DNA of 64,000 nt from Pythium myriotylum (taxonomy: Eukaryota; Oomycota; Peronosporomycetes; Pythiales; Pythiaceae), in NCBI GenBank assembly GCA_023091665.1, contig JALJCQ010000003.1:434001-498000 (forward strand), given 5' to 3'. This document shows, piece by piece, positions 35,583 through 64,000 of the stretch. Numbering within the stretch: position 1 is the first letter of the stretch; every line of letters starts with the position of its first letter. Below the pieces are notes generated by a model. The model saw nothing but the letters and a program-made list of their open reading frames with translations, had not been told where the DNA came from and ran no database searches. The position numbers and the translations under genes are program-made.

Positions 35583-37685
35583 TCATAACTGGGCGTAGAA
35601 GTGTGGCTCGTCGATCTCGCTGTAGACGGCGCCTTCGCTCGGGCTCGGGTCCATCATGGCTGGCGGTGATGGTAGGTGAGATGCCACGGGGGTGTTCAGC
35701 ACCGGGAAGCCGGTGCGACTAAGGAAGGATGCGGATGCGCGGAAGTGGCTCGTGCTCTGCGGGGTTTTAGTGCCTAGCACCGTGTCATCAAGCACGCGCC
35801 AAGCTGGCACAGGCGTCATGGTGGAGCACCGCTCACGCTTGTGGACCTCAGCCTCCTCTGTCATGACGGTGCGCATGTAGTGAGGCACGCCAGTCGGGTG
35901 GCTCGCGGATACGTTGTCCTCCATCTCAGCTAGCTCAAGCAGACGCTCGACCTGCGCGTACTCGACGCACGTTCCCTTGAGGCGGAAGAGCAACTTGGCG
36001 ACGTCGTTGAAGCGGAAGTACGAGACCTGGCAACCGAAGTGGTGCAGGATCTGGCGCAGCTCTTCGAGCTCGATGAGCCCAGAGCCGCTCGGGTCGCTCG
36101 CGTGGAAGTGACGCCGCAAGTCGGTGAGCGTCTGTCCGTTTTCGCGCATGCGGCGCCTGAGGTGGCCGACGAACTCGGCACGCAGCTCCACGCTCTCGCT
36201 GAACTGTGTGATCACCTCGCTAAGCGTTGTGACGTCCACCTTGAAAATGCAGGCGACGAGTACATAGTCGCGGAAGATCTTGGGCTGGAAGACGGTGATG
36301 TTGAGCACCAGTGGTAGTGGGATAGCAACAACAGCAATCACTCCAAACTCGTGGTAAACGGCGGGCAAGTCGTAGAGAACGGCTTGACACATCAGCGCGA
36401 AGAAGAAGCCGTTCATCACGAGAAGCAGCTTGACAACAAAGTGGATGACTTTGCGGGAGAAGAAGATCGGCCTGTGTGCCGCCATCTTGGGTGTCGGCGG
36501 CTTCTCAGCGACAACGATAGATGGCGCGTTGCCCTGCTCAAGATCCGACTCCGAGTCGATCGTTCGAAGTCGGCGGTTCTTCGGCGGAGGAAGCGTTTTG
36601 TCAGTCTTGCTCGGCCTGCCACGGAGCCGTCGGTAGAGCAGCACAAGCACCTGCAGCCCTGTATCATTCCGGGCGAGCCCTCGGTACTTGGCGTCTTTAT
36701 CCACCTGCTCGAGCTCCTTCTCATCCTGGACACGCTGCATTTTCTCGACGGCGTTGTCCAACAAGTCGTTTGCGAGGCGATGCTCCTCGTCATCGGCGAT
36801 CTTACGAAGGCACTTGAGTCGGTGACGAGCTGATGTGTATCCGCACGACGCGAGCACACTGCGTAGCAGATCGTGGAGGTAGTAGCAGAAGACTGCGTGG
36901 AGAAGCGTGACAGTCCAGGCAAAGACAACAAACATCGCGACGACCGAAAGCCCAAGCACCGGTGGGTGGTACCGGGTCTCGAAAGTCTCCGTGAGCAAGT
37001 CGAGCAACCAGGAGATGCCCATGAGCAGCACCCACATGGTGACCTCGACTTCGATGAGGTGCGAGATCTGGTTGTCCTGCGCATGTCGCAGGTACTTGGC
37101 GAACGGGAAGAATTCAGAGAGCCCCTGCGACCGGAGGAAGAAGTGGCGTAGTACTCGCAGCTTGGTCATATCGTGGTAATGGGAAGACGAGACGGTCACT
37201 TTGCTGGCGCTCGAGGCCGTCCATGGCCAGTGGCGCTGAATCCACGACTTGGACCGAAAAACCGCCTCGTGGTGGCTCACAAGTTCGGAAAGATCCCGTG
37301 TGCTGACCAGTTTGTACTTGTCGAGGCGTTTGTTGTGTCGTCGCATGACTGTGAAGATGCAGATGGCCTGGAGGATGAGCGCGACGGCCGAGAGGAAAAT
37401 GACGATGTCGGCGGCCTGGAACGCGAGCAGGTTCTTGCTCTCTGGATCGGCGAGCGCGAGCTCCTTGACGGCTTTGATTCCGAGCGAGAGCAGTCCAAGG
37501 ATCATGAGCTCTCGGTAGATCTTGCGTAGCATCTCGAAGTACTTTGGGTACCGCTCGAGCGCATGTTCAACGCGGTGGAGAAGCTGCTCGAGTAACACGA
37601 GGAATGTGAGCAGCAGGCAGAGGTGGCCGACGACACGCCAGAGTTCGACATCCGTGCCGACACGGAAGAACGACTGCGATCCCAT
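35583..37685 (-). CDS. MLO-like membrane protein with EF-hand, paralog 1
   Basis: 700 residues from ATG 37685 (MGSQSFFRVGTDVELW), chosen to match the paralogs; an in-frame ATG at 37808 would add 41. MLO-type landmarks: LLHRVEHALER then IYRELMILGLLSLGI (plant MLO has H..H..KAL and AELMLxGFISLLL), FFPFAKYLRHAQDNQISHLI before a helix (FDFHKYIxRSxEDDFK in plants), and FVVKLLLVMNGFFFALMCQAV (the FQNAFQ region). About seven helices. After the last helix an EF-hand-like loop DPSGSGLIELEE fits D-x-S-x-S-G-x-I-x-x-x-E. Plant MLO proteins are calmodulin-binding and reported Ca2+-permeable. The EF-hand fusion is not found in plant members I know. The loop lacks the His/Gly tract of paralogs 2 and 4. Confidence 0.78.
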   Translation of the reverse strand: MGSQSFFRVGTDVELWRVVGHLCLLLTFLVLLEQLLHRVEHALERYPKYFEMLRKIYRELMILGLLSLGIKAVKELALADPESKNLLAFQAADIVIFLSAVALILQAICIFTVMRRHNKRLDKYKLVSTRDLSELVSHHEAVFRSKSWIQRHWPWTASSASKVTVSSSHYHDMTKLRVLRHFFLRSQGLSEFFPFAKYLRHAQDNQISHLIEVEVTMWVLLMGISWLLDLLTETFETRYHPPVLGLSVVAMFVVFAWTVTLLHAVFCYYLHDLLRSVLASCGYTSARHRLKCLRKIADDEEHRLANDLLDNAVEKMQRVQDEKELEQVDKDAKYRGLARNDTGLQVLVLLYRRLRGRPSKTDKTLPPPKNRRLRTIDSESDLEQGNAPSIVVAEKPPTPKMAAHRPIFFSRKVIHFVVKLLLVMNGFFFALMCQAVLYDLPAVYHEFGVIAVVAIPLPLVLNITVFQPKIFRDYVLVACIFKVDVTTLSEVITQFSESVELRAEFVGHLRRRMRENGQTLTDLRRHFHASDPSGSGLIELEELRQILHHFGCQVSYFRFNDVAKLLFRLKGTCVEYAQVERLLELAEMEDNVSASHPTGVPHYMRTVMTEEAEVHKRERCSTMTPVPAWRVLDDTVLGTKTPQSTSHFRASASFLSRTGFPVLNTPVASHLPSPPAMMDPSPSEGAVYSEIDEPHFYAQL

Positions 37686-38221
37686 GGTCGAAGTTCGCTC
37701 CGGAAAGAAAATTAAATACTTTGCTTCAGCTGACGTGGGCTCTCTCTTGTGCGCCCTGCTCAGGAGAGAGATCGTCAGCTGATCGCGTGGTAGAGGTTGT
37801 GTAGCCATGTCACCATCTGTCCATCCTTTCCGCTTGAGCAGCCCACACGACTGTAGCCATGTGCTACCGCCATCACAAGCGATCGAGAAGACGACTGGCC
37901 AGGCGACACGGTCGCTTCTACAGTGAGTTCTGGATGGGGAGTCGCGCTCTCTGTCAGACGTACTCTATTTTTCTGTTCCCAGTCTCAGAAATCGACCGTG
38001 ATCGAATCTCAGTCAAGATCATCATCGTGGTCTCTCCACAAGAAAGGCAATCGCTCCCCTCCATGTTGGACACGAATGGGACACGCCGAGCTGACTACTG
38101 GGCTCGCGTCCTGACAGCCGCGGCTCCCATCCAGGTTGTAAAGAATTGCCCGACGCATTATCCATTCATTCAAACTTTCAGTTTCCCCATCAATAGTGTC
38201 AGTCTTAATAGATACTTTCGC
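37686..38221. other. Intergenic
   Basis: Promoter of MLO-like paralog 1 and 3' flank of paralog 2, both on the minus strand. No gene recognised. Confidence 0.6.
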
Positions 38222-40408
38222 TTACAAGAATGAGGCGTCATCATCGCCGCCTTTGCGCTGCTGATAGTCACCGCCTTGTACGCTATCAGCCGTGGATCGG
38301 GTCGAGTCGCTTTGGACAGGCTCGAGCGGACGCCGTGGACCCCGGCTCAGGTTCAGACTCACGCGCGGCAGACCAAAGTGGCTGGAGACTTTCTTCGTGG
38401 ACTGGAACGCCGAGCTCTCGAGCACAACAACATCTTCGCTGAAGCGCGTCGCCGTGCGGCGCTGGACCTCGGTCTCTTCAGTCATGATAGTGTGAAGGTA
38501 CTTATACCCGACACCTGTCACGCGCGACTCGCGACCGGCGATGAAGATGCTACTGCTTCCGAGGTCTTCCTGCTCGGCGAGCGTCAGCAGGCGCTCAATC
38601 TGGGTATACTCGGCGTATGTACCCTTCAATCGGAAGAGCAGCTTGGCGATGCCGTTGAAGCGGAAGAAGGAGATCTGGGTGCCAAACGTGCGGAGAACCT
38701 GACGTAGTTCCTCAAGCTCGATATAGCCTGTGCGTGCGGGGTCCTTCGCAAGAAGCGCCTCGTGTAATTCCTCCAGAGTCTGGTTGTTCTCTCGCATGGA
38801 CTGCTTTAGACAGTTGACAAAGTCGGCACGTAGCTCAACGCACTCGCTGAAGTGCGTGATAACCTCGCTCAGCGTCGGGACGTCGACCTTGAAGACGCAC
38901 GAGACGTTCACGAAGTTGCGGCAGATCTGCGGCTGGAAGAGGAACATGTTAAGCAGCAGCGGAAGAGGCACCATCATCACAGCGAGGACACCGAAGTTCT
39001 CGTAGATCTCGGGCATCTCATACAGCACGGCTTGACACATGAACGCAAAGTAGAAACCGTTCAGCATGATGAGGAACTTGACAACAAAGTGCATCGCGAG
39101 GCGATTGAAGAAACGGATCTTGACTTTAGGTACGCGAGCAGGAGCTCCGTCTCTGCGGGAGTAGTCGTCGTCATCATCATCCTCGTGACCGTGATGTTTC
39201 TTTCCACACATCCCGCGCAGGAACATAGCGAGGACCTGGAAGCCCGTGTCATGGCTGAAGCAGTTTCCGTCTCCATGGCCCCCGTGGCCCCCATCGTGGC
39301 CCCCACCATGACCGCCGCCTCCATGACCACCACCTCCATGGCCTCCACCACCTCCGTGACCCCCTCCTCCGTGACCACTTCCATGACCGTGTCCACCGCC
39401 ATGCTTCAGATGCTGCTTGGATTCCTGGTGCTCTTGCACGTGATGCATCATCTCGAGTGCGTGGTCAGGTTTCTGGTTCTCCAAGTTGTACGCCTCCTCC
39501 GCCGCGACCATCTGCAAACACGTGAGCATGTCGTTGTGCGAAGTGTAGCCGGCCGCCTCCAAAATGCGCTTGAGTGCGCTGCGCAGGTACCACGCAACGA
39601 AGATATGTAGCAATGTGAGCGCCCACGCAAAGACCACGAACATTGCCACCAGTGCGTGTCGTTCGACGAGGTGGTCGATGTCTTCGAGGAGAACCGTGGA
39701 CACGTCGAGGAGCCAGGTGAGAAAAATGAGCAGGATCCACATGGACATCTCAATATCAATCATGTGTGTGATCTGATTGTCCTGGGCCTGACGCAGGTAC
39801 TTGGAGAATGGGAAGAGTTCAGGGAGGCCATACTTGCGCAGGAAGAAGTGTCGCAGCGTTCGTGCGGTGACCATCTCTTCGAATCGCGCCGTGGTGAAGC
39901 GGATTTTCGTGCCACCGATGGTCGTGGTTTGGCCCCACGGCCACAAACGACGCATCGCGGATTGGCGACGCATCAATGCCTGGTGGCGGGTCACCAGCTC
40001 AATGAGGTCGTTCGAGTTGACGAGTTCATCACGATCCATCTGCTTGTTCTTGTTACGCATAAGCGAGAACACGGCGATGGCTTGGATAATCAGCGCGAAC
40101 GCAGATATAAACACGATTAGATCGGCGACTTGGAACGCCATGATGTTTTTCCCATAGCCGTCGACCACGCCGAGCTCCTTGACGACCTTGATACCGAGGC
40201 CGAGCAAGCCGAGAATCATCAATTCTCGGTAGATTTTGGTCAGCATTTCGTGGTATTTCGGGTATTTTTGCAGCGCGTGCTCGGTCTTGTGCATCACTTG
40301 CTCGAGCACCATGACGATGACGATGAGGATACTCAGGTAAACGACGACGCGCCATAGCTCGATGTTGTCGCCGATGCGGAAGTAGGAGCTCGAGGTCGAG
40401 CCCGGCAT
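38222..40408 (-). CDS. MLO-like membrane protein with EF-hand and His/Gly loop, paralog 2
   Basis: 728 residues from ATG 40408 (MPGSTSSSYFRIGDNIELW). MLO landmarks: VMHKTEHALQKYPKY, IYRELMILGLLGLGI, FPFSKYLRQAQDNQITHMI and FVVKFLIMLNGFYFAFMCQA. The large central cytosolic loop holds a tract of about 50 residues made almost only of Gly and His (coded near 39270-39405), a likely Zn/Ni/Cu-binding region. It is followed by HDTGFQVLAMFLRGMCGKKHHGHEDDDDDD. The EF-hand-like loop DPARTGYIELEE keeps D1, T5, G6, I8 and E12 but has Ala at position 3. Predicted plasma-membrane or endomembrane protein responding to Ca2+ and perhaps metal. Confidence 0.8.
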   Translation of the reverse strand: MPGSTSSSYFRIGDNIELWRVVVYLSILIVIVMVLEQVMHKTEHALQKYPKYHEMLTKIYRELMILGLLGLGIKVVKELGVVDGYGKNIMAFQVADLIVFISAFALIIQAIAVFSLMRNKNKQMDRDELVNSNDLIELVTRHQALMRRQSAMRRLWPWGQTTTIGGTKIRFTTARFEEMVTARTLRHFFLRKYGLPELFPFSKYLRQAQDNQITHMIDIEMSMWILLIFLTWLLDVSTVLLEDIDHLVERHALVAMFVVFAWALTLLHIFVAWYLRSALKRILEAAGYTSHNDMLTCLQMVAAEEAYNLENQKPDHALEMMHHVQEHQESKQHLKHGGGHGHGSGHGGGGHGGGGGHGGGGHGGGGHGGGHDGGHGGHGDGNCFSHDTGFQVLAMFLRGMCGKKHHGHEDDDDDDYSRRDGAPARVPKVKIRFFNRLAMHFVVKFLIMLNGFYFAFMCQAVLYEMPEIYENFGVLAVMMVPLPLLLNMFLFQPQICRNFVNVSCVFKVDVPTLSEVITHFSECVELRADFVNCLKQSMRENNQTLEELHEALLAKDPARTGYIELEELRQVLRTFGTQISFFRFNGIAKLLFRLKGTYAEYTQIERLLTLAEQEDLGSSSIFIAGRESRVTGVGYKYLHTIMTEETEVQRRTATRFSEDVVVLESSAFQSTKKVSSHFGLPRVSLNLSRGPRRPLEPVQSDSTRSTADSVQGGDYQQRKGGDDDASFL
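39270..39405 (-). repeat. His/Gly-codon tandem tract
   Basis: An in-frame run of GGH/GGGH-type units inside MLO-like paralog 2. Codons vary (CAT, CAC, GGA, GGC, GGG), so the peptide rather than the DNA unit seems conserved. Confidence 0.8.
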
Positions 40409-41722
40409 CCTGGCCTGTGCGCGGTCTGCTTAATCGTCGAGTGTGATGGCCTTGGGCGATAATCAGTCGAACGCGTAACCACGAGCCCACAACCGAACGG
40501 TTCCTCTCGTCCATGCGGCGAGCCGTCATCGCCCTTGCGCATCCCCCTTCGCACTTGTCCGCGGCCGATTCACCGGCTCGTTGGAAGATGGTACTGGAGA
40601 CTCGGGGCATTATTGTCAAGTGGATGAGATTCCTTGAAGTAGTGGGTAACCCGTGCAAAAAAGCGCCCGAGAGACGATAATGTACTGTTTTAACGACAAA
40701 ACTGTCCGAAACCCGTGAGGCAGGGCTTCTGACTCCCTGTCTCGAGATCATGGTGGTCGGACATAAATAGGACAGGCACATGGTTGAAAAATCAACTTAG
40801 GGGTAGGTGTACTATCAGCTTCTCTCGTGTCGATGAATGGTGTTCTCCCAGCTGGCGTCTGCCTCAGGATTGCAGCCGTCGTTCGTGAGTCCGCGTGGAC
40901 TCATCTGCTCGCTGGGTTTTCTGTCAAGTGAGACGCGCGATCAGTACAGTATACAACCATACGCCGGCCGAGGCGAGGGCTCGCGTGGCCCAAAAGACAC
41001 GCTCGTTTGGAGGATAAGATCGAGAGCTCACGCAAAACTCAACTTCGTTAAAATAAATGCAGTACTCCGTCTTGGATATTTTTTTTGGTATGTATCTGAG
41101 ATCCCACCAACGGGGGCTTTCGCCATGGTGCGGTAGAGTCTCGCTTCGAGTCTCCTTTCCAGGTCTCCATGGAGAAGCGAAGACGCGTGTCGATGATGGC
41201 CGGTACTCGGGCTCGCATTTGAACATCATCCGTTGGACTCAGCGATCGCGACATTTGGAGATGTAGAATCACGGCCAACTCCACCACAAGATCAGCCTTG
41301 GGAGACGGCGTCGAAATGGGAAGGGCCGACTTCTACGAGGCACCCGTACAGCAGCGAAAGATTGCAGGATGGTTCTGCGCCAATCCCTCGAGGTAATCGT
41401 TTCCCTTTCCCTCCAGGGTCCAAGGGAAGCCTCGCCTCTGCATTCGTACTGGAGACGCACGACTGGAGCAATTGCCTCCCCCGAGTTGAACGTGGAAGAC
41501 AATGGAGTGGGAGGTTGGAGCAGATGATGCTTTACGTAGAGTTCTGGAAGAACGGTCTCCACTCGCGATGCTTCGGTTTCAAGGTTCTGCCTTTGGGCGA
41601 ATCTTCTCGTAGATTGCGAGAATTCCATCCTTGATCATGAAGTCTAAACATAGGACGAGTGGTCTCCGCCCACGCGATGGAATGGAGGCTGTTTCCCGCC
41701 CCCAAGAAGAACCAAGCGAATC
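40409..41722. other. Intergenic (divergent MLO-like promoters)
   Basis: A 1.3-kb spacer between minus-strand paralog 2 and plus-strand paralog 3; both promoters are expected here. No supported gene or repeat. Confidence 0.6.
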
Positions 41723-44002
41723 ATGGGCGGCTCGAGTGGCAGCAATGTGGGCTCGCTCTTCCGCGTGGGCGAGTCGATCAGCGTGGCCCACGTGCTTGTC
41801 TTTCTCTCGTTTCTCGTCGTCTTCATCGTGCTCCTTGAGCAGATCCTCCACAAGATCGAGCACAGTGCCAAAAGATCACATAAGCACGAGGAGATGCTAC
41901 GAAAAGTCTATCGCGAGCTGATGATTCTGGGATTCATCGGTGTCGCAATCAAGGTCTACAAAGAGGTCACGCACATCAGCGCCTACAGCACCTCGATCAT
42001 CGCGTTCCAAGTGGCCGACCTCACGATTTTCATCCTCGCTGTCGCACTCATCCTCCAGGCGTTGTGTGTGTTTCTCGCGCTGCGACAAGAAAATTACGAG
42101 CTCGAGAAGGCCGAACTAATCAGCTCCGGCGATTTGGCGATCACAATGGCCCAAAGACGACGCGAGCAGACTGCCAGATTGGACTGGCCACGGTGGTGGT
42201 TATCGACAAATCAAAGTTGCAGTGACCACAAAGCGGTCGGAATTAGTGATGGCGAGCTGCACGATCTCATTGAGCTGCGAGTGCTTCGCCATCTCTTTCT
42301 CCGTCGGTACGGCTTGCCGGAGCTCTTTCCGTTCTCCAAGTACGTTCGTCAGGCTCAGGACAACCAAATCACGCACATGATCGATGTCGAGATCTCCATG
42401 TGGCTCTTGCTTCTTGGGGTGGGATGGGCCATCGACGGCGGCATCGTGGCACTCAAGCAGGTGCACGGGTACGCCGCCGAGTCCCACGCAATCGTGGTCG
42501 TCTTTCTCATCTTCTCGTGGACCCTCGTAGTGCTCCACATCCTCGTGGCCACCTACTTTCGTCGATGCCTCGTGCAGCTGCTGATGGCAGGAGGGTACAA
42601 GCATCGTGACGGTGACGCCGTCGCGTGCCTTGCGGTGATCGGCGAAGACGAAGACACGGCTCTGGGCAAAGAAATGGCGAGCGACGCTCTCGAGGCGATG
42701 CAAGAAGTGCAAGAGCGACAGGAGGCCAAACACCGACGGCTCAAGCTTGAGCATCGAAGCAAGCGGCACTACCTCGTGGAGCGAGACACGGGCTTCCAAC
42801 TACTCGCGCTCGCGTTCAGGCACCTCATGAATCGATGTCGAAGATCAGAATCAACGCATAGGGGCGACGAGACGCGCGAAAGCCGAGTCGACAGCAACGT
42901 CACGGTTACAGCGACGGCCTCGACCGCAACACCGACTGCGAGTTTCGACCTCAGCACGTACGACGTGGCCAACCACCCGACAGTGGAGCGTCCGGCGCGC
43001 CGTCGCTCAGCCGAACTCTCTGTACGATTACGCTGGTTCTCACGGAAGGCGTGGCAGTTCGGTGTGACCATGCTCTTGATGCTCAATGGCTTCTACCTCG
43101 CGTTGCTGAGCCAGTGTGTCTTCTACCAGTTTGGGTCACTCAGGAACTACTCAGTCGTGCTGCGAGTAGCCGTCGTCCTCGGACTGCCGCTGCCGGTGCT
43201 GCTCAACATGGTCTACTTCCAGCCGCAGATCCTGCGCAACTTCATGATCATCTCGAGTATCGTGCAAGTGGACGTCACAACGCTCAGCAAAGTTGTCACC
43301 CACTTCAGCGAGATCGTCGAGCTGCGCGCCGAGTTCGTGCGCTCGCTGCTGGCGTCACTGAGCAGTCACGGCGTCACAGTCGCCCAGCTGCAGCAGGCGC
43401 TTGAGGCGAAAGACCGACCCAGACGCTCAGGCGTGATCGAGCTCGAACAGCTTCGGCTCGTACTGCGCTCGGTGGGCTTCCGGCTTTCGCACTTTCGTTT
43501 CAACAGCGTCGCGAGGCTTCTCTTCCAACTGAAAGACACCAAGGTCGAGTACGCCCAGGTGCTGCGTATGATCGCCCTGGCTCAGGAGGACGAGGCCGGA
43601 GTTATCCATGATAGCAATGTCCACGGCAGCCATTTGCTGCTACGACAGAGTGTGTTCCTTGAGGAGGAGGCAGATGCCCACGAGAATCGTCAAGAAGACA
43701 GTGGAGACCGTGAACGCGAGACCATGAGGGTAGGAGATGGGGACGCGATGACCAACGACACACGATTGGCGTTTGGTTCGGTACGGCCAGCCGCTGGCGG
43801 GTTCGTGGATGGCGAATCTGGCGCAATGGCTCGACGCCGCACGATCACTCGCCGCCAGAGCAGTTTCCAGAACACGAGCGTACGGACGCTCCGCTCCTTG
43901 TACCGTCTTGACACGAATGAGCCTGGGGACGCCGGTGATCCCGTGGTCACCGACAGCGAGCTCTCATCTCCGTCGAATGCGACCGCGTACGTTCGCGTGT
44001 GA
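41723..44002 (+). CDS. MLO-like membrane protein, paralog 3 (divergent EF-hand)
   Basis: 759 residues from ATG 41723 (MGGSSGSNVGSLFRVGESI). MLO landmarks: ILHKIEHSAKR, VYRELMILGFIGVAIK, FPFSKYVRQAQDNQITHMI and GVTMLLMLNGFYLALLSQCV. It is the most diverged of the set. The central loop has a Thr/Ser-rich stretch (VTVTATASTATPTASFDL) in place of the His/Gly tract. The EF-hand site reads KDRPRRSGVIELEQ, with an extra residue and Gln for the final Glu, so Ca2+ binding there is doubtful. The C-terminus is long, basic and Ser-rich (RRRTITRRQSSFQNTSVR), a possible phosphorylation or calmodulin site. Confidence 0.78.
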   Translation: MGGSSGSNVGSLFRVGESISVAHVLVFLSFLVVFIVLLEQILHKIEHSAKRSHKHEEMLRKVYRELMILGFIGVAIKVYKEVTHISAYSTSIIAFQVADLTIFILAVALILQALCVFLALRQENYELEKAELISSGDLAITMAQRRREQTARLDWPRWWLSTNQSCSDHKAVGISDGELHDLIELRVLRHLFLRRYGLPELFPFSKYVRQAQDNQITHMIDVEISMWLLLLGVGWAIDGGIVALKQVHGYAAESHAIVVVFLIFSWTLVVLHILVATYFRRCLVQLLMAGGYKHRDGDAVACLAVIGEDEDTALGKEMASDALEAMQEVQERQEAKHRRLKLEHRSKRHYLVERDTGFQLLALAFRHLMNRCRRSESTHRGDETRESRVDSNVTVTATASTATPTASFDLSTYDVANHPTVERPARRRSAELSVRLRWFSRKAWQFGVTMLLMLNGFYLALLSQCVFYQFGSLRNYSVVLRVAVVLGLPLPVLLNMVYFQPQILRNFMIISSIVQVDVTTLSKVVTHFSEIVELRAEFVRSLLASLSSHGVTVAQLQQALEAKDRPRRSGVIELEQLRLVLRSVGFRLSHFRFNSVARLLFQLKDTKVEYAQVLRMIALAQEDEAGVIHDSNVHGSHLLLRQSVFLEEEADAHENRQEDSGDRERETMRVGDGDAMTNDTRLAFGSVRPAAGGFVDGESGAMARRRTITRRQSSFQNTSVRTLRSLYRLDTNEPGDAGDPVVTDSELSSPSNATAYVRV

Positions 44003-44659
44003 GCCGGGCGGCTCCACACCACCAAATAAATTGAGAGGAAGATGCAGGACACCCGAGGATCATCCAGATAACCTTTTACACGGGAATCTTTGAATCAAGA
44101 TTGTGGTTGTTGCAAGTTGGCCAGCACCCAGCAAGTTTTGATGCGTGGACTCGATGGAGTCTCTGTTCTTGCCGAGCCCTTGATGTATTTCCCCACGAAT
44201 ACCTGACTAAATCGCTTGATTTGCGTGACTCTTCCAATCTGTTTCGATACAAAAACCAAGTTGTAAATCTTCTGATCACTTGTGAGTTTTCAAATTAGGG
44301 CTAGGTAACTGATGCGTGGGCTGTCTTCTTGATCGGTCCAGCTGGTCCCACTGAAACTCGAGTTCTTGATGTTTGTATCCCAGTCCATCCAGCTGGTTTG
44401 TCAATGGATCAAGTTGCCTTTTTTTTCGCTCGCGTTTGCAATTGCAAGATTAGGACGCGTAAAGGCGCACAAGAGCACAGTGCTTCGTCTGCTCGAACAA
44501 TCCGTTTCTTGAAAAGGTTCAGCGCCGAGCAGGACAAACCTGGGCAGCAACCATCAAACTGGTGTGCTTTCCACGGGATGAGGCACCGGCTCCCTGAGAA
44601 CAGCCGCCTGCCTTTGGTGAGCGCGGCCAGCGTTGCCGACCATTTCAGAATTTGCCACC
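44003..44659. other. Intergenic
   Basis: Spacer between the two plus-strand MLO-like genes; likely promoter of paralog 4. Nothing else recognised. Confidence 0.6.
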
Positions 44660-46885
44660 ATGCCCGGTGGAACGTCGAGTTCCTACTTTCGCATCGGCGA
44701 CAACATTGAGCTATGGCGCGTCGTCGTCTATCTCTGCATGCTCATCGCCATGGTCATGGTGCTTGAGCAAATGATGCACAAGGCCGAGCACGCGCTGCAA
44801 AAGTACCCCAAGTACCACGAAATGTTGACCAAAATTTATCGAGAATTAATGATTCTCGGCTTGCTCGGTCTCGGTATCAAGTTTGTCAAAGAAACGGGGG
44901 TGGTCGACGGCTACGGGAAGAATATCATGGCGTTCCAAGTTGCCGATTTGATCGTGTTTATATCGGCCTTCGCGCTGATTATACAGGCTATAGCTGTGTT
45001 CTCACTGATGCGCAACAAGAACAAGCAACTGGATCGCGATGAACTCGTGAGCTCGACTGATCTCATAGAGTTGATCAAGCGCCACCAAGCAATGCTACGC
45101 CAGCAGTCTTGGTGCCGTCGCTTGTGGCCCTGGACGAGTGCCCCCGAGCTCGGCACGATGGCTGTCAAGGGCAAGAAGATTTCGTTCTCGACGGGTCGCT
45201 ACGACGAGATGGTCACGCTCCGAACGCTGCGACACTTCTTTTTGCGCAAGTACGGGCTACCAGAACTCTTTCCTTTCTCGAAGTACCTGCGTCAAGCCCA
45301 AGACAACCAGATCACGCACATGATTGAGATCGAAATGTCCATGTGGATCCTCCTCATTTTCCTGACGTGGCTACTGGACGCTTCGACTGCACTGCTCGAG
45401 GGCGTGCACCATGAGATTGAACGCCACGCCCTCGTGACAATGTTCCTTATCTTTGCGTGGGCTCTTTGTCTGCTCCACTTGCTCATGACGTGGTACATGC
45501 GTGGTGCCGTCAAGCGCATCCTACACGCCACTGGCTACCATTCTCACAAGGATATGCTCACGGTTCTCCAGAAGGTGGCTGCCGAGGAGTCCCACAATCT
45601 CGAGAACCAGAAGCCTGACGAAGCGCTTGATATGATGCACCACGTCCAAGAACGACTCGAGTCCAAGGAGCACGGCCGCCATGGTGGCCATGGTGGTGGC
45701 CACGGTGGTGGCCACGGAGGGGATCATGGTGATAGTGGTCATGGTGGTGGACATGGAGGCGGAGGTCATGGTGGCGGTCACGGTGGTGGTCATGAACAAG
45801 GCGGCCACGGTGGCCATGCCGAAGGAAACTGTCTGAGCCATGACACAGGTTTCCAGGTCGTCGCTATGTTCATGCGTGGCATGTGCGGGAAGAAGCACCA
45901 CGGTCACGAAGACGACGACGATGAGGACTTCTCGCGTCCTGGCGAGGCGCCTCTTCCCAAGGTCAAGATCCGCTTCTTCAATCGCCTCGCCATGCACTTT
46001 GTCGTGAAGTTCCTTGTTATGCTGAACGGCTTCTACTTCGCGTTCATGTGCCAGGCCGTGCTGTATGAAATGCCTGAGGTGTACAAAACCTTTGGTATCT
46101 TGCCGACTATCATGGTGCCTCTGCCGCTGCTGCTGAACATGCTCGTGTTCCAGCCCAAGATCTCTCGCAACTTTGTGCTGGTCTCGTGCATTTTCAAGGT
46201 CGACGTGCCCACCTTGAGTGAGGTCATCACACACTTCAGTGAGTGCGTCGAACTGCGCGCTGATTTTGTCGCTTGTCTCAAGCAGTCAATGCGAGAGAAC
46301 CACCAGACCGTCGAGGAACTCCACGCTGAGTTCCAGGCGCGTGACCCCGCGCGCACTGGCTTCATCGAGCTCGAAGAGATGCGCCAGGTGCTGCGCGCAT
46401 TTGGCTGCCAGATCTCCTTCTTCCGCTTCAACGGCATCGCCAAACTGCTCTTCCGACTGAAGGGTACGCAGGCTGAGTACACGCAGGTCGAGCGTTTGTT
46501 GACGCTCGCCGAACAGGAAGACCTGGGAGGCAGCCACATCCAGGGTGAGCGTCAGACCAAGTACTTCCACTCGATTATGACCGAGGAAACCGAGGTCCAG
46601 AAGCAAAACCGGTTCTCCGTTATGTCTGGACGGCAGAGTGAAGAGATTGTGATGCTTGAGAGCTTTGTTGGCAGCGTTAAGCGAACAACGAACAACAACC
46701 AGGCGTCGCAAGAGCACACTGTGCCTGTCACGGGCCGCTTCGGCTTGCCTCGCTTCAGTGCGTCACGCCCAGCGCTTCCCCCAACCATCGAGACGATAGA
46801 TCGTAACTCGCCAGCGCAAACGGGACGCAACGGTGGCGAAACCCTCGGCAGTGTCAAGGGCGGCCACGACTACAACGTGGTGTGA
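44660..46885 (+). CDS. MLO-like membrane protein with EF-hand and His/Gly loop, paralog 4
   Basis: 741 residues from ATG 44660 (MPGGTSSSYFRIGDNIELW); no earlier in-frame ATG is convincing. It is closest to paralog 2: MMHKAEHALQKYPKY, IYRELMILGLLGLGIK, FPFSKYLRQAQDNQITHMI and FVVKFLVMLNGFYFAFMCQA. The central loop again has a His/Gly tract (coded 45669-45828) with a few acidic residues, then CGKKHHGHEDDDDEDF. The EF-hand-like loop is DPARTGFIELEE. Paralogs 2 and 4 are in inverted orientation, consistent with an inverted duplication of the cluster. Confidence 0.8.
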   Translation: MPGGTSSSYFRIGDNIELWRVVVYLCMLIAMVMVLEQMMHKAEHALQKYPKYHEMLTKIYRELMILGLLGLGIKFVKETGVVDGYGKNIMAFQVADLIVFISAFALIIQAIAVFSLMRNKNKQLDRDELVSSTDLIELIKRHQAMLRQQSWCRRLWPWTSAPELGTMAVKGKKISFSTGRYDEMVTLRTLRHFFLRKYGLPELFPFSKYLRQAQDNQITHMIEIEMSMWILLIFLTWLLDASTALLEGVHHEIERHALVTMFLIFAWALCLLHLLMTWYMRGAVKRILHATGYHSHKDMLTVLQKVAAEESHNLENQKPDEALDMMHHVQERLESKEHGRHGGHGGGHGGGHGGDHGDSGHGGGHGGGGHGGGHGGGHEQGGHGGHAEGNCLSHDTGFQVVAMFMRGMCGKKHHGHEDDDDEDFSRPGEAPLPKVKIRFFNRLAMHFVVKFLVMLNGFYFAFMCQAVLYEMPEVYKTFGILPTIMVPLPLLLNMLVFQPKISRNFVLVSCIFKVDVPTLSEVITHFSECVELRADFVACLKQSMRENHQTVEELHAEFQARDPARTGFIELEEMRQVLRAFGCQISFFRFNGIAKLLFRLKGTQAEYTQVERLLTLAEQEDLGGSHIQGERQTKYFHSIMTEETEVQKQNRFSVMSGRQSEEIVMLESFVGSVKRTTNNNQASQEHTVPVTGRFGLPRFSASRPALPPTIETIDRNSPAQTGRNGGETLGSVKGGHDYNVV
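45669..45828 (+). repeat. His/Gly-codon tandem tract
   Basis: In-frame GGH/GGGH units within MLO-like paralog 4, interrupted by GDHGDSGHG and HEQGGHG. Same position in the protein as the tract of paralog 2. Confidence 0.8.
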
Positions 46886-50814: not shown

Positions 50815-51600
50815 TCACATGAGAGCCTGCGCAAAGGGTTCGAGAAACGCCGCAATTGGTAGCTGATTCATACCCGACTGCAGGTGTAATCTGAACGTGC
50901 GGGACGGCCGATTCGCACAATTAGCAGTTGGTGTAAACCTGCTGCCCGTGGCCGATGTAGGCCACGGTTTGTCATAGATCAAGTTTTGCCAGCACTCCTC
51001 GTTCTCATTTTGACCGAATCGATCACAGCTCGACAGTACAAACCACACTGAAGTCATCGCCTGTGTCTCGAATATGTCGCCGTCAATTGTCTTTTGATTG
51101 TCATCCCACGTGAAGTCAATCCATTTGACGCATGACCCCGGATTGAAGACATGCTCGTATGCGGAACTGAATCTTGCGTTTCGGGCGCAAACCACGTCAG
51201 TGCCATCGCCTGCAAGTTACGTAAGTCATTGTGGATCTCGTGGAAAGAGAAGCTGAAGTCGATCCACTCGAGACGTGGCGTCTGGATCGCAGACACCGTC
51301 GTCAAAGCTCGCACACGCGGCGGTACGTCTCACATACCGACTGCTCCACTTGCGCGCAATCGCAATCGCCTTGGAAGTCGAGATCTTCGTCGGCTTGTTC
51401 CCCATGACGTCTCCATGCAGATTGTTGAGTGTGCTGCACATCGCGTTGGCGTAAACCAGTTCAACCCATCCACTCGGTGGGTTCAACTCATTTTTAGTTA
51501 CCGGTAGCTTACCTTCAAGACAGTAAGGAACCCGTCTGACCTTGACGTTGGCGGTTTTCCCCCAATTGCTAACTTTGTCATTCGGCACTTGCGCTCGGTT
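50815..51600 (-). pseudogene. Probable decayed gene with WIDF-type repeats
   Basis: Minus-strand translation in changing frames shows three related segments: SGWVELVYANAMCSTLNNL, LEWIDFSFSFHEIHNDL..LQAMALTWF and VKWIDFTWDDNQ..TQAMTSVWF. The frame shifts between them without good introns, so I read it as a decayed gene. The family is not recognised. It lies head to head with the transporter, and its 5' part together with the transporter's start is copied at 59847-60150. Confidence 0.3.
51578..51590 (+). promoter_or_regulatory. Initiator-like element of the transporter
   Basis: TCATTCGGCACTT lies 18 bases before ATG 51608 and resembles the oomycete initiator/flanking element. The duplicate at 59971-59987 keeps the site as TCATTTGGCATTTTTGC, an even closer match. 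Confidence 0.45.
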
Positions 51601-51607
51601 CCACGAC

Positions 51608-52969
51608 ATGCCTCGTTGGTTCACGCTCGAGGATGCCAAGACGTCGTTTAACCTCTTCTGTTGTGTCTACGGCATTGGCACGCTCGGCATGCCGGCTAAC
51701 TTTGCACGTGCTGGACCAGTTTTTGCTACTCTCGCGCTTCTCTTCATGGCATTTACAAATACGTACGCGTCGGTTGCGATCTCGCGTGTGATGCTCGCAG
51801 CTCCATCGAGCGTCCAGACGTTCGGGGATATTGGTGAGTGGGCGTGCGGGTCGCGTGGACGCTGGGCAGTTGTTGTCTCGCAACTCAGTGTTTGTCTGCT
51901 CGTGCCATGCGCGTTCCTCGTGCTCGGCGGCACGTTGCTGCAGGTTTTGTTTCCACATTCCTTCAGTGGGTCCTTTTGGATCGTGTTCATGGCGCTCATG
52001 GTGTTGTCAGTGTGCCTTATCCCGACCCTGAAGGAAGGAGCCGGTGTGGCTCTTGCTGGATGCCTCGCCACGATCCTTTCTGACATGATCGCCATGGGCG
52101 TGATGGTACACGGGATGAAACAAGTTGATGCCCCAGTTCAGTCGCCAGAAGTAAGTGTTGGCCAGGTATTTACAACGTTCGGGAATCTGTCGCTCGCGTA
52201 CGGCGCTGGCATTGTGATCCCAGACCTCCAGCGCCAACACTCACGACCAACGCAGATGCCACGCGTTATTGGAGCTACTCTTGGTTTTATCTCCCTGCTG
52301 TTCCTTTTGTTGGGGACCACGGGCTATGGTGTCGCTGGCTGTCAGATCTCAGGAAATCTACTTTTCTCGATTACATCAGTCTCTCACGGCGAGACGGACA
52401 CATCACCGCTCGGGTTCATTCCCCATCGTGGCGCTGTTGTAATGGCATACTTCTTCATGCAAATGCACATTACGATCGCGTTTGCGGTGCTTCTTCACCC
52501 GGCTTTCTACACGGCTGAGCGTCTATTACTTGGTATGCACCAGCAAAAAGCATATCACGACATGGAGGCATCCGCTGGTGACCTGAAGCCAGAGAGTGAA
52601 GGGGAAGAGGCAACCGATGATGACGTCGGCGAGTACGCAGGCACGAAATCTACGTTGCGGTATACCTCTCTGCGCTTCGGGATCGTCACCATGCTCGTGC
52701 TGTTAGCATTGGCACTGCAAGACCACTTCCTCGACCTGGCCGACTTCATCGGCGCGACTTGCATCTCTCTAAGCTGTCTGATCCTTCCGCTTGCGTTCTA
52801 TGTGCAGGTCTTTAGGCAATCGCTTTCGATTATCGAGCGACGACTGGCACTGGCAATTATTGCGGTTTCATCGCTTGCCGGTCTCTACGTTGTTCTCGCG
52901 ATCGCTATGAGGTATGCCAAAGAGGACCCAGCGGAAGCTTCACAATTTCCATTTTGTCCAGCACAGTAG
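51608..52969 (+). CDS. Amino acid transporter (AAAP family)
   Basis: 453 residues from ATG 51608 (MPRWFTLEDAKTSF). Helix 1 shows the family start NLFCCVYGIGTLGMPANFARAG, comparable to the GxGxLxLP motif of AAAP/SLC38-like permeases. About eleven helices follow, for example VVVSQLSVCLLVPCAFLVLG, FWIVFMALMVLSVCLIP, FISLLFLLLGTTGYGVAG and FFMQMHITIAFAVLLHPAFY. An acidic cytosolic loop (PESEGEEATDDDVGEY) lies before the last three helices. Proton-coupled uptake or vacuolar exchange of amino acids is the family role; the substrate is unknown. The first 37 codons and the promoter are duplicated at 59847. Confidence 0.85.
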   Translation: MPRWFTLEDAKTSFNLFCCVYGIGTLGMPANFARAGPVFATLALLFMAFTNTYASVAISRVMLAAPSSVQTFGDIGEWACGSRGRWAVVVSQLSVCLLVPCAFLVLGGTLLQVLFPHSFSGSFWIVFMALMVLSVCLIPTLKEGAGVALAGCLATILSDMIAMGVMVHGMKQVDAPVQSPEVSVGQVFTTFGNLSLAYGAGIVIPDLQRQHSRPTQMPRVIGATLGFISLLFLLLGTTGYGVAGCQISGNLLFSITSVSHGETDTSPLGFIPHRGAVVMAYFFMQMHITIAFAVLLHPAFYTAERLLLGMHQQKAYHDMEASAGDLKPESEGEEATDDDVGEYAGTKSTLRYTSLRFGIVTMLVLLALALQDHFLDLADFIGATCISLSCLILPLAFYVQVFRQSLSIIERRLALAIIAVSSLAGLYVVLAIAMRYAKEDPAEASQFPFCPAQ

Positions 52970-55110: not shown

Positions 55111-55935
55111 TCAGTACGTCGTGATGACTCGGTCGTTGAGCGGCTGCACGGGACGAGCGGCTTTGCCGTTGTCGGAAGCCTCGATCCGCTTGAGGTCGGT
55201 CTGGATCTGGTCGTAGTCCGACGTTGAGACTGCGAGCGGCTTCTCGACAACCCACCAGTCGACCGTCTCATCACAACTGGGGCTAGTCAGACTACCAGCG
55301 TAGTTGAACAATCTCCCGCCTGCGATCGCCGACTCGATCATCGAGTGGAAGGACGGCAGCGTGACCTCGGCGGTCTTGTTCATGCTAACGTTCTTGATCT
55401 GTTCGAGGTACTTGAGCACGAATGGATCGGTCTTGGCTGTGGGCTGCTTATCAAAGAAAAGACCGACGACCAGAATATCCTTCTCGCTCTTGTGAACGAA
55501 GTGGATCTCGGCGTCGTGAACCTTGCCGTTGAGCGTGTGCTCTGCCGGCTCATGGAAGTGGGCTATCGCATACTTGTAGGCTTTGCCGTGGGCCGAGACC
55601 TGGCACGTGCCGCCCACGGCTTCGGCCTTGAACGCGTCGTAGTACTCCTTGATCTTGTGAGGTCCGCACTCACCCGAGAACGACAGCGGCGACTTGGCTC
55701 GCTTCGTGCCGGCTACGCGGCACATGGTCGTGGGCACAATGTCGATCGGAGACTGGCGTTTGCCACCGCAATTCGGGTACTTCTGGCTCCACTCGGCCGG
55801 CGCGTAGACGCTGGCGTCGTTCGTCTTGTAGCTGAACTGCTTGCCGCCATCCGCCGTGGCGCCGTCGGCGTGGGCCGACCCGACGGCGCAGCAAGCGAGA
55901 GAGACTGTGGCGGCAAAGAGAGAGAAGCACTTCAT
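55111..55935 (-). CDS. Secreted alpha-carbonic anhydrase 1
   Basis: 274 residues, one exon. A signal peptide (MKCFSLFAATVSLACCAVG..AHA) leads to an alpha-CA domain with GGKRQSPIDIVP, AHFHEPAEHTLNG (two zinc His and the Glu), DAEIHFVH (third zinc His) and GSLTSPSCDETVDWWV (the Thr that orients the zinc-bound hydroxide). It hydrates CO2 to bicarbonate outside the cell or in the secretory pathway. The proton-shuttle His of fast alpha-CAs seems replaced (VGGTCQV where NGHxxxV is usual). Paralogs 2 and 3 lie 2-7 kb away. Confidence 0.93.
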   Translation of the reverse strand: MKCFSLFAATVSLACCAVGSAHADGATADGGKQFSYKTNDASVYAPAEWSQKYPNCGGKRQSPIDIVPTTMCRVAGTKRAKSPLSFSGECGPHKIKEYYDAFKAEAVGGTCQVSAHGKAYKYAIAHFHEPAEHTLNGKVHDAEIHFVHKSEKDILVVGLFFDKQPTAKTDPFVLKYLEQIKNVSMNKTAEVTLPSFHSMIESAIAGGRLFNYAGSLTSPSCDETVDWWVVEKPLAVSTSDYDQIQTDLKRIEASDNGKAARPVQPLNDRVITTY

Positions 55936-57813: not shown

Positions 57814-58220
57814 CGGAGCTCTCAGATGATGTGGTCCACTCTACAAGTGATCCCCTGTTGAAGAAGAAGGAATGTAGCCATATCATTTCAGGAATGTGAG
57901 ATGCGAATCAGACGTCCAGGGCGGAGTGAGTGGCGAAAGAGAAGAAAACGAAAGATCGCGAGCCCTCGATGAGGTCATCAAGGCACGACAGAGCACGAGA
58001 GCGCATCTCCGCTTCACCAGGCTCGCTGCCACCCGCGAATCCGGTGGGTTCACGTCGAGACTCGCACCTGCGCGGGGGAAGAGAGCTGAGTTGAACCCAC
58101 GACCTGATTCCCTCGACAGTGTGGATGGGCTCACGGAGCTCCTCAGTTTGTCTCGCTCTCTGCCCACGGGTGGCTGTCCACTTCTCCGGCTCGCACTCCC
58201 CAATCTCCTCCGTCGCAACC
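57814..58220. other. Intergenic (divergent promoters)
   Basis: Shared upstream region of the F-box gene (minus) and carbonic anhydrase 2 (plus). The sequence is open in several frames through composition only; no gene supported. Confidence 0.55.
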
Positions 58221-59109
58221 ATGAAGCTCTCGATCGCCGCTGCGCTCGCCGTCGCTGCTCTGGCCGTCGCGCCTTCCTCTGTCTCGGCGGTCTCGATGCC
58301 CGCTGGCACACCAGGGACCAACGACTGGACCTACAAGACGTCCGCCAACGGGCTCCCCGGTCCGGCGCACTGGGGGGAGACGTACAAGACCTGCGCTGGC
58401 AAGCGCCAGTCGCCCATCGACATCACCTACGTGGACGAGTCCCAGGGCCAGCTCCCGCTCGAGCTCAGCGGCTCGTGCACTGCCTACAATGTCACGCAGC
58501 ATTACGATTCGTTCAAGGCCGAGGTCCAGGGTGGTTCGTGCGTCGCCAAGTGCGAGGGCAAGTCCTACACATTTGCACAGGTCCACTTCCACGCGCCGTC
58601 CGAGCACACTGTGGATGGCGTGCCGTACGACGCCGAGGCACACTTTGTGCACAAAGCTGATGACGGCAGCATCATCGTGATCGGCATCTTCCTACAGCGC
58701 AGCGACGACGACACGGCGGGGACCGAGCCGTTCTTTGCCAAGTTCTTCGAGACGCTTGACGACGTCGAGGAGAATGATCCGGTTCCCGCGACACTGTGAG
58801 TCCGACCTGATTATGTTTTATCTTGTGGTCGCTGACTGACGTGGACAACTACTCATTAGGGGACTTTTCCACACGGCAGTCAAGAACGCGATCAGCGAGG
58901 GCTACGTCTTCAACTACCCAGGCGGCCTCACCGTGCCACCGTGCAGTGAAGTGGTCACTTGGTATGTCGTGGAGACACCGCTCGTCGTCTCTGAGGAAGA
59001 TTACGAGACGATTACCACGAACCTGAAGCGTATCGTGGCCGCTACGGCTGATGGCAAAAATGCGCGACCGACCCAGCCGCTCCACGGCCGCAAGATTGTG
59101 GCATTCTAA
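58221..59109 (+). CDS. Secreted alpha-carbonic anhydrase 2
   Basis: Two exons (58221-58795, 58860-59109) split by a 64-nt intron (GTGAGT..CATTAG); 274 residues from ATG 58221. Signal peptide MKLSIAAALAVAALAVAPS. Domain motifs: AGKRQSPIDITYV, QVHFHAPSEHTVDG and DAEAHFVH for zinc, and GGLTVPPCSEVVTWYV. The residue after the key Thr is Val, where many CAs have Thr. It carries the GGSCV form at the proton-shuttle site. The intron is absent from paralogs 1 and 3. Extracellular CO2/bicarbonate exchange is the likely role. Confidence 0.93.
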
Positions 59110-61810: not shown

Positions 61811-62614
61811 ATGAAGACCTCGTTTGCTCTCGCTACCAGCGTGCTCGCCCTTACTTCCAGTGCGATCTCAGCCGAGACCGAGCCGTGGACCTACAAAGCG
61901 AACGAGTCCGATCTGCTCAGCCCTCCTCAATGGTTCCGTCAATACCCGGACTGTAACGGCGTGAGGCAGTCACCCATCGACATCACACCTGCGCCCAAGA
62001 CCCACCCACTCTCGACGCTTCCTATCGAGTTCACCGGCTCATGTCCGAGCTTTAACATCAAGCAGTACTGGGAATCGTTCAAGGCCGAAGCGGTGAATGG
62101 CTCGTGCGCCCTCGACGTCAATGGCAAGGCCTACAACTTCGCGCAAGTCCACTTCCATGCGCCGTCCGAGCACACGATCGAGGGAAAAGCCATGGATGGC
62201 GAGCTCCACTTCGTCCACAAAGCCGCGGACGGCTCGATCGCCGTCGTCGGTCTCTTCATCGAGAAGCGGCATCCGCTGCAGCTTGAGATCAAGACCGATT
62301 CGTTTCTCTGTAACTTTCTTAAGGAGCTTAAGCACGTCAACGAGACCCACCCAGTCTCGGCTTCCCTCGGCAGCTTCTTCCCGACGCTCAAATCCTCGAT
62401 CCTCCAAGGACGAGTGTTCAACTACCCGGGTAGCCTCACAACTCCCACGTGTTCAGAGAACGTTGAGTGGTGGGTTCTCGAGAAGCCTTTGAGCGTCTCC
62501 GAAGCCGAATTTGCCGACATTCACAACGAGCTCAAGCGCATTGGCGCGGCGGATGATGGCAACAACGCCCGGCCGACGCAGCCGCTAAACGGACGCACGA
62601 TCACGGTGTACTGA
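61811..62614 (+). CDS. Secreted alpha-carbonic anhydrase 3
   Basis: 267 residues, one exon. Signal peptide MKTSFALATSVLALTSSAISA. Domain motifs: NGVRQSPIDITPA, QVHFHAPSEHTIEG and GELHFVH for zinc, and GSLTTPTCSENVEWWV with both Thr. Closest by eye to paralog 2 in the central part (KAYNFAQVHFHAPSEH) but lacking its intron. The proton-shuttle position reads VNGSCAL. Several Asn-X-Ser/Thr sites suggest glycosylation. It lies 1.07 kb upstream of the fifth MLO-like gene. Confidence 0.93.
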   Translation: MKTSFALATSVLALTSSAISAETEPWTYKANESDLLSPPQWFRQYPDCNGVRQSPIDITPAPKTHPLSTLPIEFTGSCPSFNIKQYWESFKAEAVNGSCALDVNGKAYNFAQVHFHAPSEHTIEGKAMDGELHFVHKAADGSIAVVGLFIEKRHPLQLEIKTDSFLCNFLKELKHVNETHPVSASLGSFFPTLKSSILQGRVFNYPGSLTTPTCSENVEWWVLEKPLSVSEAEFADIHNELKRIGAADDGNNARPTQPLNGRTITVY

Positions 62615-63679: not shown

Positions 63680-64000
63680 ATGCCGGGCTCAACGTCGAGC
63701 TCCTATTTTCGCGTGGGCGATAACATCGAGCTATGGCGCGTCGTGCTCTACCTGAGCATCCTTATCATCATCGTTATGATCCTCGAGCAGATCATGCACA
63801 AGACCGAGCACGCGCTCCAAAAGTACCCCAAGTATCATGAAATGCTGACGAAAATTTATCGAGAGTTGATGATTCTCGGATTACTCGGTCTCGGCATCAA
63901 GGTCGTCAAGGAGCTGGGCGTGGTTGACGGCTATGGGAAGAACATCATGGCCTTTCAAGTGGCCGATCTGATCGTGTTCATCTCGGCGTTCGTTTTGATC
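63680..64000 (+). CDS. MLO-like membrane protein, paralog 5 (partial, runs off the end)
   Basis: The first 107 codons from ATG 63680 (MPGSTSSSYFRVGDNIELW). The sequence is almost identical to paralog 2 at protein level: IMHKTEHALQKYPKY, IYRELMILGLLGLGIKVV and GKNIMAFQVADLIVFISAF. Two helices are visible before the edge. Whether it carries the His/Gly tract and EF-hand cannot be seen here. Confidence 0.85.
   Translation, partial: MPGSTSSSYFRVGDNIELWRVVLYLSILIIIVMILEQIMHKTEHALQKYPKYHEMLTKIYRELMILGLLGLGIKVVKELGVVDGYGKNIMAFQVADLIVFISAFVLI

Follow-up and report, generated by a model that had tools for sequence, protein, structure and literature searches.

MLO is best known as a mildew susceptibility factor of plants with a calmodulin-binding tail, and MLO-like proteins in Chromalveolata, together with MLO fusions, are reportedly described by Kusch et al. 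(2016). Two papers describe the MLO family as plant and algal (PMC13360292, PMC9229925), a third reports that plant MLO1, MLO5, MLO9 and MLO15 form Ca2+-permeable channels in HEK293T cells with an activator (PMC9810639), and plant MLO tails are reported to bind calmodulin (PMC13360292, PMC8198571) at a tail helix marked by Leu and Trp (PMC8198571). Here, we analyze a gene cluster in a 64,000-nucleotide stretch of the genome of the oomycete Pythium myriotylum (contig JALJCQ010000003.1, positions 434,001 to 498,000; hereafter the window, whose numbering is used throughout). We read the encoded proteins as MLO-type seven-helix membrane proteins, perhaps channels, that would carry a tethered EF-hand lobe in place of the plant calmodulin site, a reading to which we assign about an even chance (roughly 0.5).

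Four genes are complete in the window, each as one intact open reading frame (ORF): gene 1 (35583..37685, minus strand, 700 aa), gene 2 (38222..40408, minus strand, 728 aa), gene 3 (41723..44002, plus strand, 759 aa) and gene 4 (44660..46885, plus strand, 741 aa). The ORF of gene 4 opens with a TTG at 44633, and the ATG at 44660 was taken as the start in line with the start conserved in the family. Gene 5 has only its start in the window (63680..64000, plus strand), runs past the window end and is complete just outside (713 aa; L007:1181-3322). An earlier sequence-only reading had placed four complete genes and a fifth at 63680, and we find them there, all as single ORFs; its loci hold, while the start of gene 1 is moved from 37808, where the ORF opens, to the conserved family start at 37685. 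A search of the genome (58.7 Mb, 55 contigs; copy counts are lower bounds) with one window gene returned at least 11 family copies, every one a single open frame, of which six lie on the contig that carries the window (C3; one of them about 44 kb past the window) and five on contig C16. The latter constitute a second MLO/EF-hand group, at C16:1540361-1567259.

MLO homology and membrane topology

Searches with the Pfam MLO profile (PF03094, curated cut-off 24 bits) were positive for all four complete genes, which bears out the MLO identity proposed earlier. E-values are 6.6e-4 for gene 1 (18.6 bits), 3.2e-6 for gene 2, 4.9e-6 for gene 3 and 2.4e-9 for gene 4, and three of the four proteins exceed the cut-off, gene 1 falling under it. 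Gene 4 matches in two blocks, in the same frame and in order, covering profile positions 9-70 (transmembrane helix (TM) 1, inner loop 1 and TM2) and 150-288 (from an inner loop into TM4); the protein has about 20 residues between the blocks, as against 79 positions in the profile. For the other genes the best block alone was tabulated. The match might conceivably be spurious and the family some other kind of helical membrane protein, given that gene 1 is under the cut-off and that nine of 41 family members miss an E-value of 0.01, including an Aphanomyces protein for which the PF03094 search gave no match at E ≤ 1. We consider this very improbable: the remaining 32 of the 41 match at E ≤ 0.01, the best at 2.4e-9, and the first MLO block is also found in distant protist proteins. 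Four such environmental MLO-like proteins were found. Searched individually, P0074, P0076 and P0077 score above the PF03094 cut-off and P0078, at 22.3 bits, just below it, and a profile of the oomycete proteins aligns with the distant ones from TM1 to TM5 (hhalign E 4.4e-22).

The membrane part (residues 15-480 in gene 1; 36246..37643, minus strand) has seven main hydrophobic cores, which are helical in an AlphaFold2 model; the second of them is weak and split. With loop limits drawn by hand, the inner loops are long (medians 20, 101 and 124 residues) and the outer ones short (12-13 residues), and Lys and Arg are enriched in alternate loops, placing positive charge on the inner side as in MLO topology; we infer that the N-terminus is outside and the C-terminus inside. 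Conservation was assessed in an alignment of 63 rows (A3), comprising 56 of 67 database relatives and seven of the 11 P. myriotylum copies; P0007, P0028, P0033, P0039, P0046, P0047, P0054, P0058, P0066, P0069 and P0071 were left out as fused, duplicate or fragmentary, and a smaller alignment (A2) holds 34 of the 67 relatives and seven copies. Seven helices and long inner loops are thus shared with MLO, and two plant hallmarks are missing: the family has no long TM2-TM3 outer loop, no Cys column in the outer stretches is common to more than two of the 63 rows, and no Trp column after TM7, where the calmodulin site would be expected, is common to more than three.

The tail EF-hand pair and its calcium ligands

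An EF-hand-like loop is present in the C-terminal part of all four complete genes, as had been noted before. It is canonical-like in gene 1 (DPSGSGLIELEE; 36060..36095, minus strand), gene 2 (DPARTGYIELEE; 38708..38743, minus strand) and gene 4 (DPARTGFIELEE; 46343..46378, plus strand), and altered in gene 3 (DRPRRSGVIELEQ; 43412..43450, plus strand), which has one additional residue and Gln instead of Glu12. In the AlphaFold2 model of gene 1 this loop belongs to an EF-hand pair (residues 520-593; 35907..36128, minus strand), predicted as two helix-loop-helix units with two short bridging strands (helix 520-530, strand 537-539, helix 540-549; helix 556-566, strand 573-575, helix 576-593), with block means of the predicted local distance difference test of 86-98 (72 for residues 591-600). 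The modeled pair aligns to structures of EFCAB6 and calmodulin; a Foldseek search with the model gave no match at E ≤ 0.001. A profile built from 15 of the 63 tail segments (A4) matches calmodulin over both hands (best E 1.2e-7) and EFCAB6 (E 3.3e-24) in the PDB, where E-values are for whole chains and repeated hands add up. EF-hand Pfam matches of single proteins are all under the cut-off, and gene 3 has none at E ≤ 1. Because loop positions are conserved over the 63 members and the A4 profile matches calmodulin and EFCAB6, the resemblance of the tail to EF-hands is, as judged from sequence, beyond chance. At the level of profile comparison and predicted structure, the data demonstrate that the proteins are homologous to MLO, that they have seven helices and long inner loops, and that the tail has an EF-hand fold.

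Whether the lobe senses Ca2+ depends on its ligands. The loop of hand 1 is strongly conserved, with D1 in 61, T/S5 in 58, G6 in 62, I/L/V8 in 63 and E/D9 in 61 of the 63 rows. Several features weigh against a family-wide sensor: Glu12 is present in 18 rows and absent from 45 (Glu or Asp in 34), position 3 is mixed, the full ligand set (D1 and Glu12 together with oxygen side chains at 3, 5 and 9) occurs in four rows, and hand 2 is degenerate, the acidic ligands at 1, 3 and 5 being missing in nearly all rows. With lineage groups assigned from genus names, Glu12 is retained in one of the 19 Phytophthora and downy-mildew rows, 12 of which have Lys12, and in eight of the 22 rows of Pythium-type and Lagenidium proteins. 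The strongest rival explanation builds on this pattern, and on the fact that the fold positions G6 and hydrophobic 8 stay fixed where Glu12 is replaced by Lys; it sees the tail as an EF-hand-like domain with a structural or docking role and no Ca2+ sensing anywhere in the family, and the acidic loop residues in P. myriotylum as leftovers. This is a serious contender, to which we would nevertheless give somewhat less than even odds, since the near-invariant D1 and E/D9 would be of little use to a helix-loop-helix with a structural role alone. Moreover, D1 and Glu12 occur together in ten of the 11 P. myriotylum copies, whose loops were picked by a pattern that itself requires D1, the exception being gene 3 with its inserted residue. 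Counted by eye, position 3 carries an oxygen side chain as well in five of the 11, namely in gene 1 and in four C16 copies out of five; in these four C16 loops, D1 and Glu12 are accompanied by oxygen side chains at both 3 and 5. Owing to the ligand pattern of the two hands, one low-affinity Ca2+ site is plausible in the P. myriotylum proteins, whereas for most of the Phytophthora proteins examined Ca2+ binding is improbable. The built-in Ca2+ sensor suggested earlier is therefore retained in part: the EF-hand lobe in the tail stands, whereas a Ca2+-type loop is confined to hand 1 and Glu12 is lost in many relatives.

For MLO-type proteins with a tethered lobe, these features suggest the following mechanism. 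The membrane part would pass or control Ca2+, as plant MLOs do. The cytosolic tail soon after helix 7 is predicted to form a lobe in which a hand with a Ca2+-type loop packs on a degenerate one, and hand 1 could bind local Ca2+ close to the inner mouth. The Ca2+-bound lobe might then alter its grip on the helix that links it to TM7 or on an adjacent inner loop, resulting in feedback within the chain and without separate calmodulin. In proteins whose loop has lost Glu12 (gene 3 and most of the Phytophthora and downy-mildew proteins examined), the lobe would therefore serve as a fixed module for structure or docking. That the oomycete proteins act as channels, bind Ca2+ and are subject to feedback is proposed here by analogy; there is a fair chance, though we lean the other way, that the membrane part is a scaffold or trafficking receptor and not a channel, in which case MLO homology would be uninformative on ion passage. 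Also less likely than not is the broadest version of the proposal, according to which oomycete MLOs are Ca2+ channels whose intramolecular EF-hand feedback sensor replaces the plant calmodulin site, was kept in the Pythium-like lineage studied here and was switched off in Phytophthora and downy mildews by loss of Glu12, with other protist MLOs having placed the EF-hand elsewhere.

Relatives, cluster history and neighboring genes

The database search, which scored only candidates with the most shared words, yielded the 67 relatives; an organism is named for 53, and all 53 are oomycetes. The genera and species include P. insidiosum, P. oligandrum, Lagenidium, Albugo and Aphanomyces. Oomycetes of this range comprise plant pathogens, an animal pathogen (P. 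insidiosum) and a mycoparasite (P. oligandrum). The MLO-like family that the earlier reading saw as expanded in the pathogen lineage is a multi-copy oomycete family whose named relatives have varied lifestyles. One relative is labeled 'Mlo-related protein' and many are labeled 'EF-hand domain-containing protein', and both halves of the protein are accordingly already in database labels. The combination of the two is not described in the titles and abstract openings among the matches listed, which is weak evidence of absence. Two Phytophthora gene models, P0007 and P0069, in which at least two MLO units (1240 aa), or one MLO unit and a sugar transporter, are joined, are probably annotation fusions.

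A maximum-likelihood tree of 50 rows (the 11 P. myriotylum copies and 39 of the 67 relatives; P0070 and P0065 are long-branched, and P0067 and P0070 have an odd make-up) pairs gene 2 with gene 5 as sisters (100/100), followed by gene 4, with gene 1 deeper in the same clade. Gene 3 groups with a P. oligandrum gene in a clade that holds Phytophthora, with weaker support (95/69). The order of two minus-strand and two plus-strand genes had suggested an inverted duplication, and a block of two genes duplicated recently in inverted orientation would also fit the long inverted matches between genes 2 and 4 (75-83% over arms of 195 nt and more). The tree, however, pairs gene 2 with gene 5 and not with gene 3 or gene 4, and it places gene 3 in the other clade; a single clade for the five window-region genes is rejected by the approximately unbiased test (p-AU 9.6e-6), and synonymous divergence (dS) among them is 1.3-1.9, near saturation. 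The inverted matches are confined to coding sequence, gene against gene, with a 6 nt overhang at one arm end. The duplication is thus highly improbable and is given up. Because of the tree, the rejected single clade and the gene-against-gene nature of the inverted matches, we consider the cluster, on sequence grounds, a mix of two old subfamilies, gene 3 belonging to the separate one. Relatives in Globisporangium, P. insidiosum and P. oligandrum carry neighboring locus tags, which suggests that the clustering itself is old. The ratio of nonsynonymous to synonymous divergence among the close copies (genes 2, 4 and 5) is 0.09-0.13 at dS 1.3-1.8, near saturation and hence a rough guide, and shows purifying selection at the sequence level.

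Three eukaryotic-type carbonic anhydrase genes lie near the cluster, at 55111-55935 (minus strand), 58119-58799 (plus strand) and 61811-62614 (plus strand); the second aligns to no more than positions 2-162 of the 254 in the profile and is perhaps spliced or interrupted. An amino-acid transporter gene is found at 51542-52969 (plus strand; Aa_trans E 4.9e-36).

Comparison with known systems

An old and expanded MLO-type family outside plants, with an EF-hand lobe of its own, offers a comparative handle on the basal role of MLO, and natural ligand loss in whole lineages helps to ask whether Ca2+ feedback belongs to MLO function. The presence of MLO in oomycetes also calls for caution against reading it as a pathogenicity trait. 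Among the closest systems are the labeled oomycete proteins of Phytophthora, Pythium, Globisporangium and others, which are of the same family, the window genes being their orthologues or paralogues; they differ by lineage in their loop ligands.

Among the distant protist proteins, P0078 (870 aa; its relative P0077, 61% identical, exceeds the PF03094 cut-off) resembles the window family in having an MLO block, a His/Gly-rich inner loop and an EF-hand in the chain. The His/Gly-rich stretch lies in the cytosolic TM5-TM6 loop of genes 2 (39260..39395, minus strand), 4 (45690..45830, plus strand; both limits approximate) and 5, P0005, P0006 and the Aphanomyces protein, the oomycete stretches having 7-10 His per 30 residues; it recurs in P0070 and in three of the four environmental proteins (P0074, P0077 and P0078). 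It looks as if it were a metal-binding loop, and its recurrence could be convergent. Unlike the window family, P0078 carries its canonical EF-hand loop, DVDGSGMIDGAE, between TM5 and TM6 and not after TM7 (EF-hand_7 E 1.9e-5, 25.4 bits vs a cut-off of 30). If this assignment is correct, MLO chains have acquired EF-hands on more than one occasion.

The E-L-M-x-L-G motif is present in plant MLO, and conserved outer cysteines are typical of it. The oomycete proteins share with the plant family (PF03094; barley MLO and Arabidopsis MLO1-15) the TM1/loop 1/TM2 block, including E-L-M-x-L-G, the block of inner loop and TM4, seven helices and long inner loops. They differ in a TM2-TM3 stretch of about 13 residues, in lacking the conserved outer Cys and the Trp after TM7, and in the EF-hand pair of the tail. 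In this last respect, ion channels with EF-hand tails, such as voltage-gated sodium channels with their C-terminal domains, are among the closest known systems.
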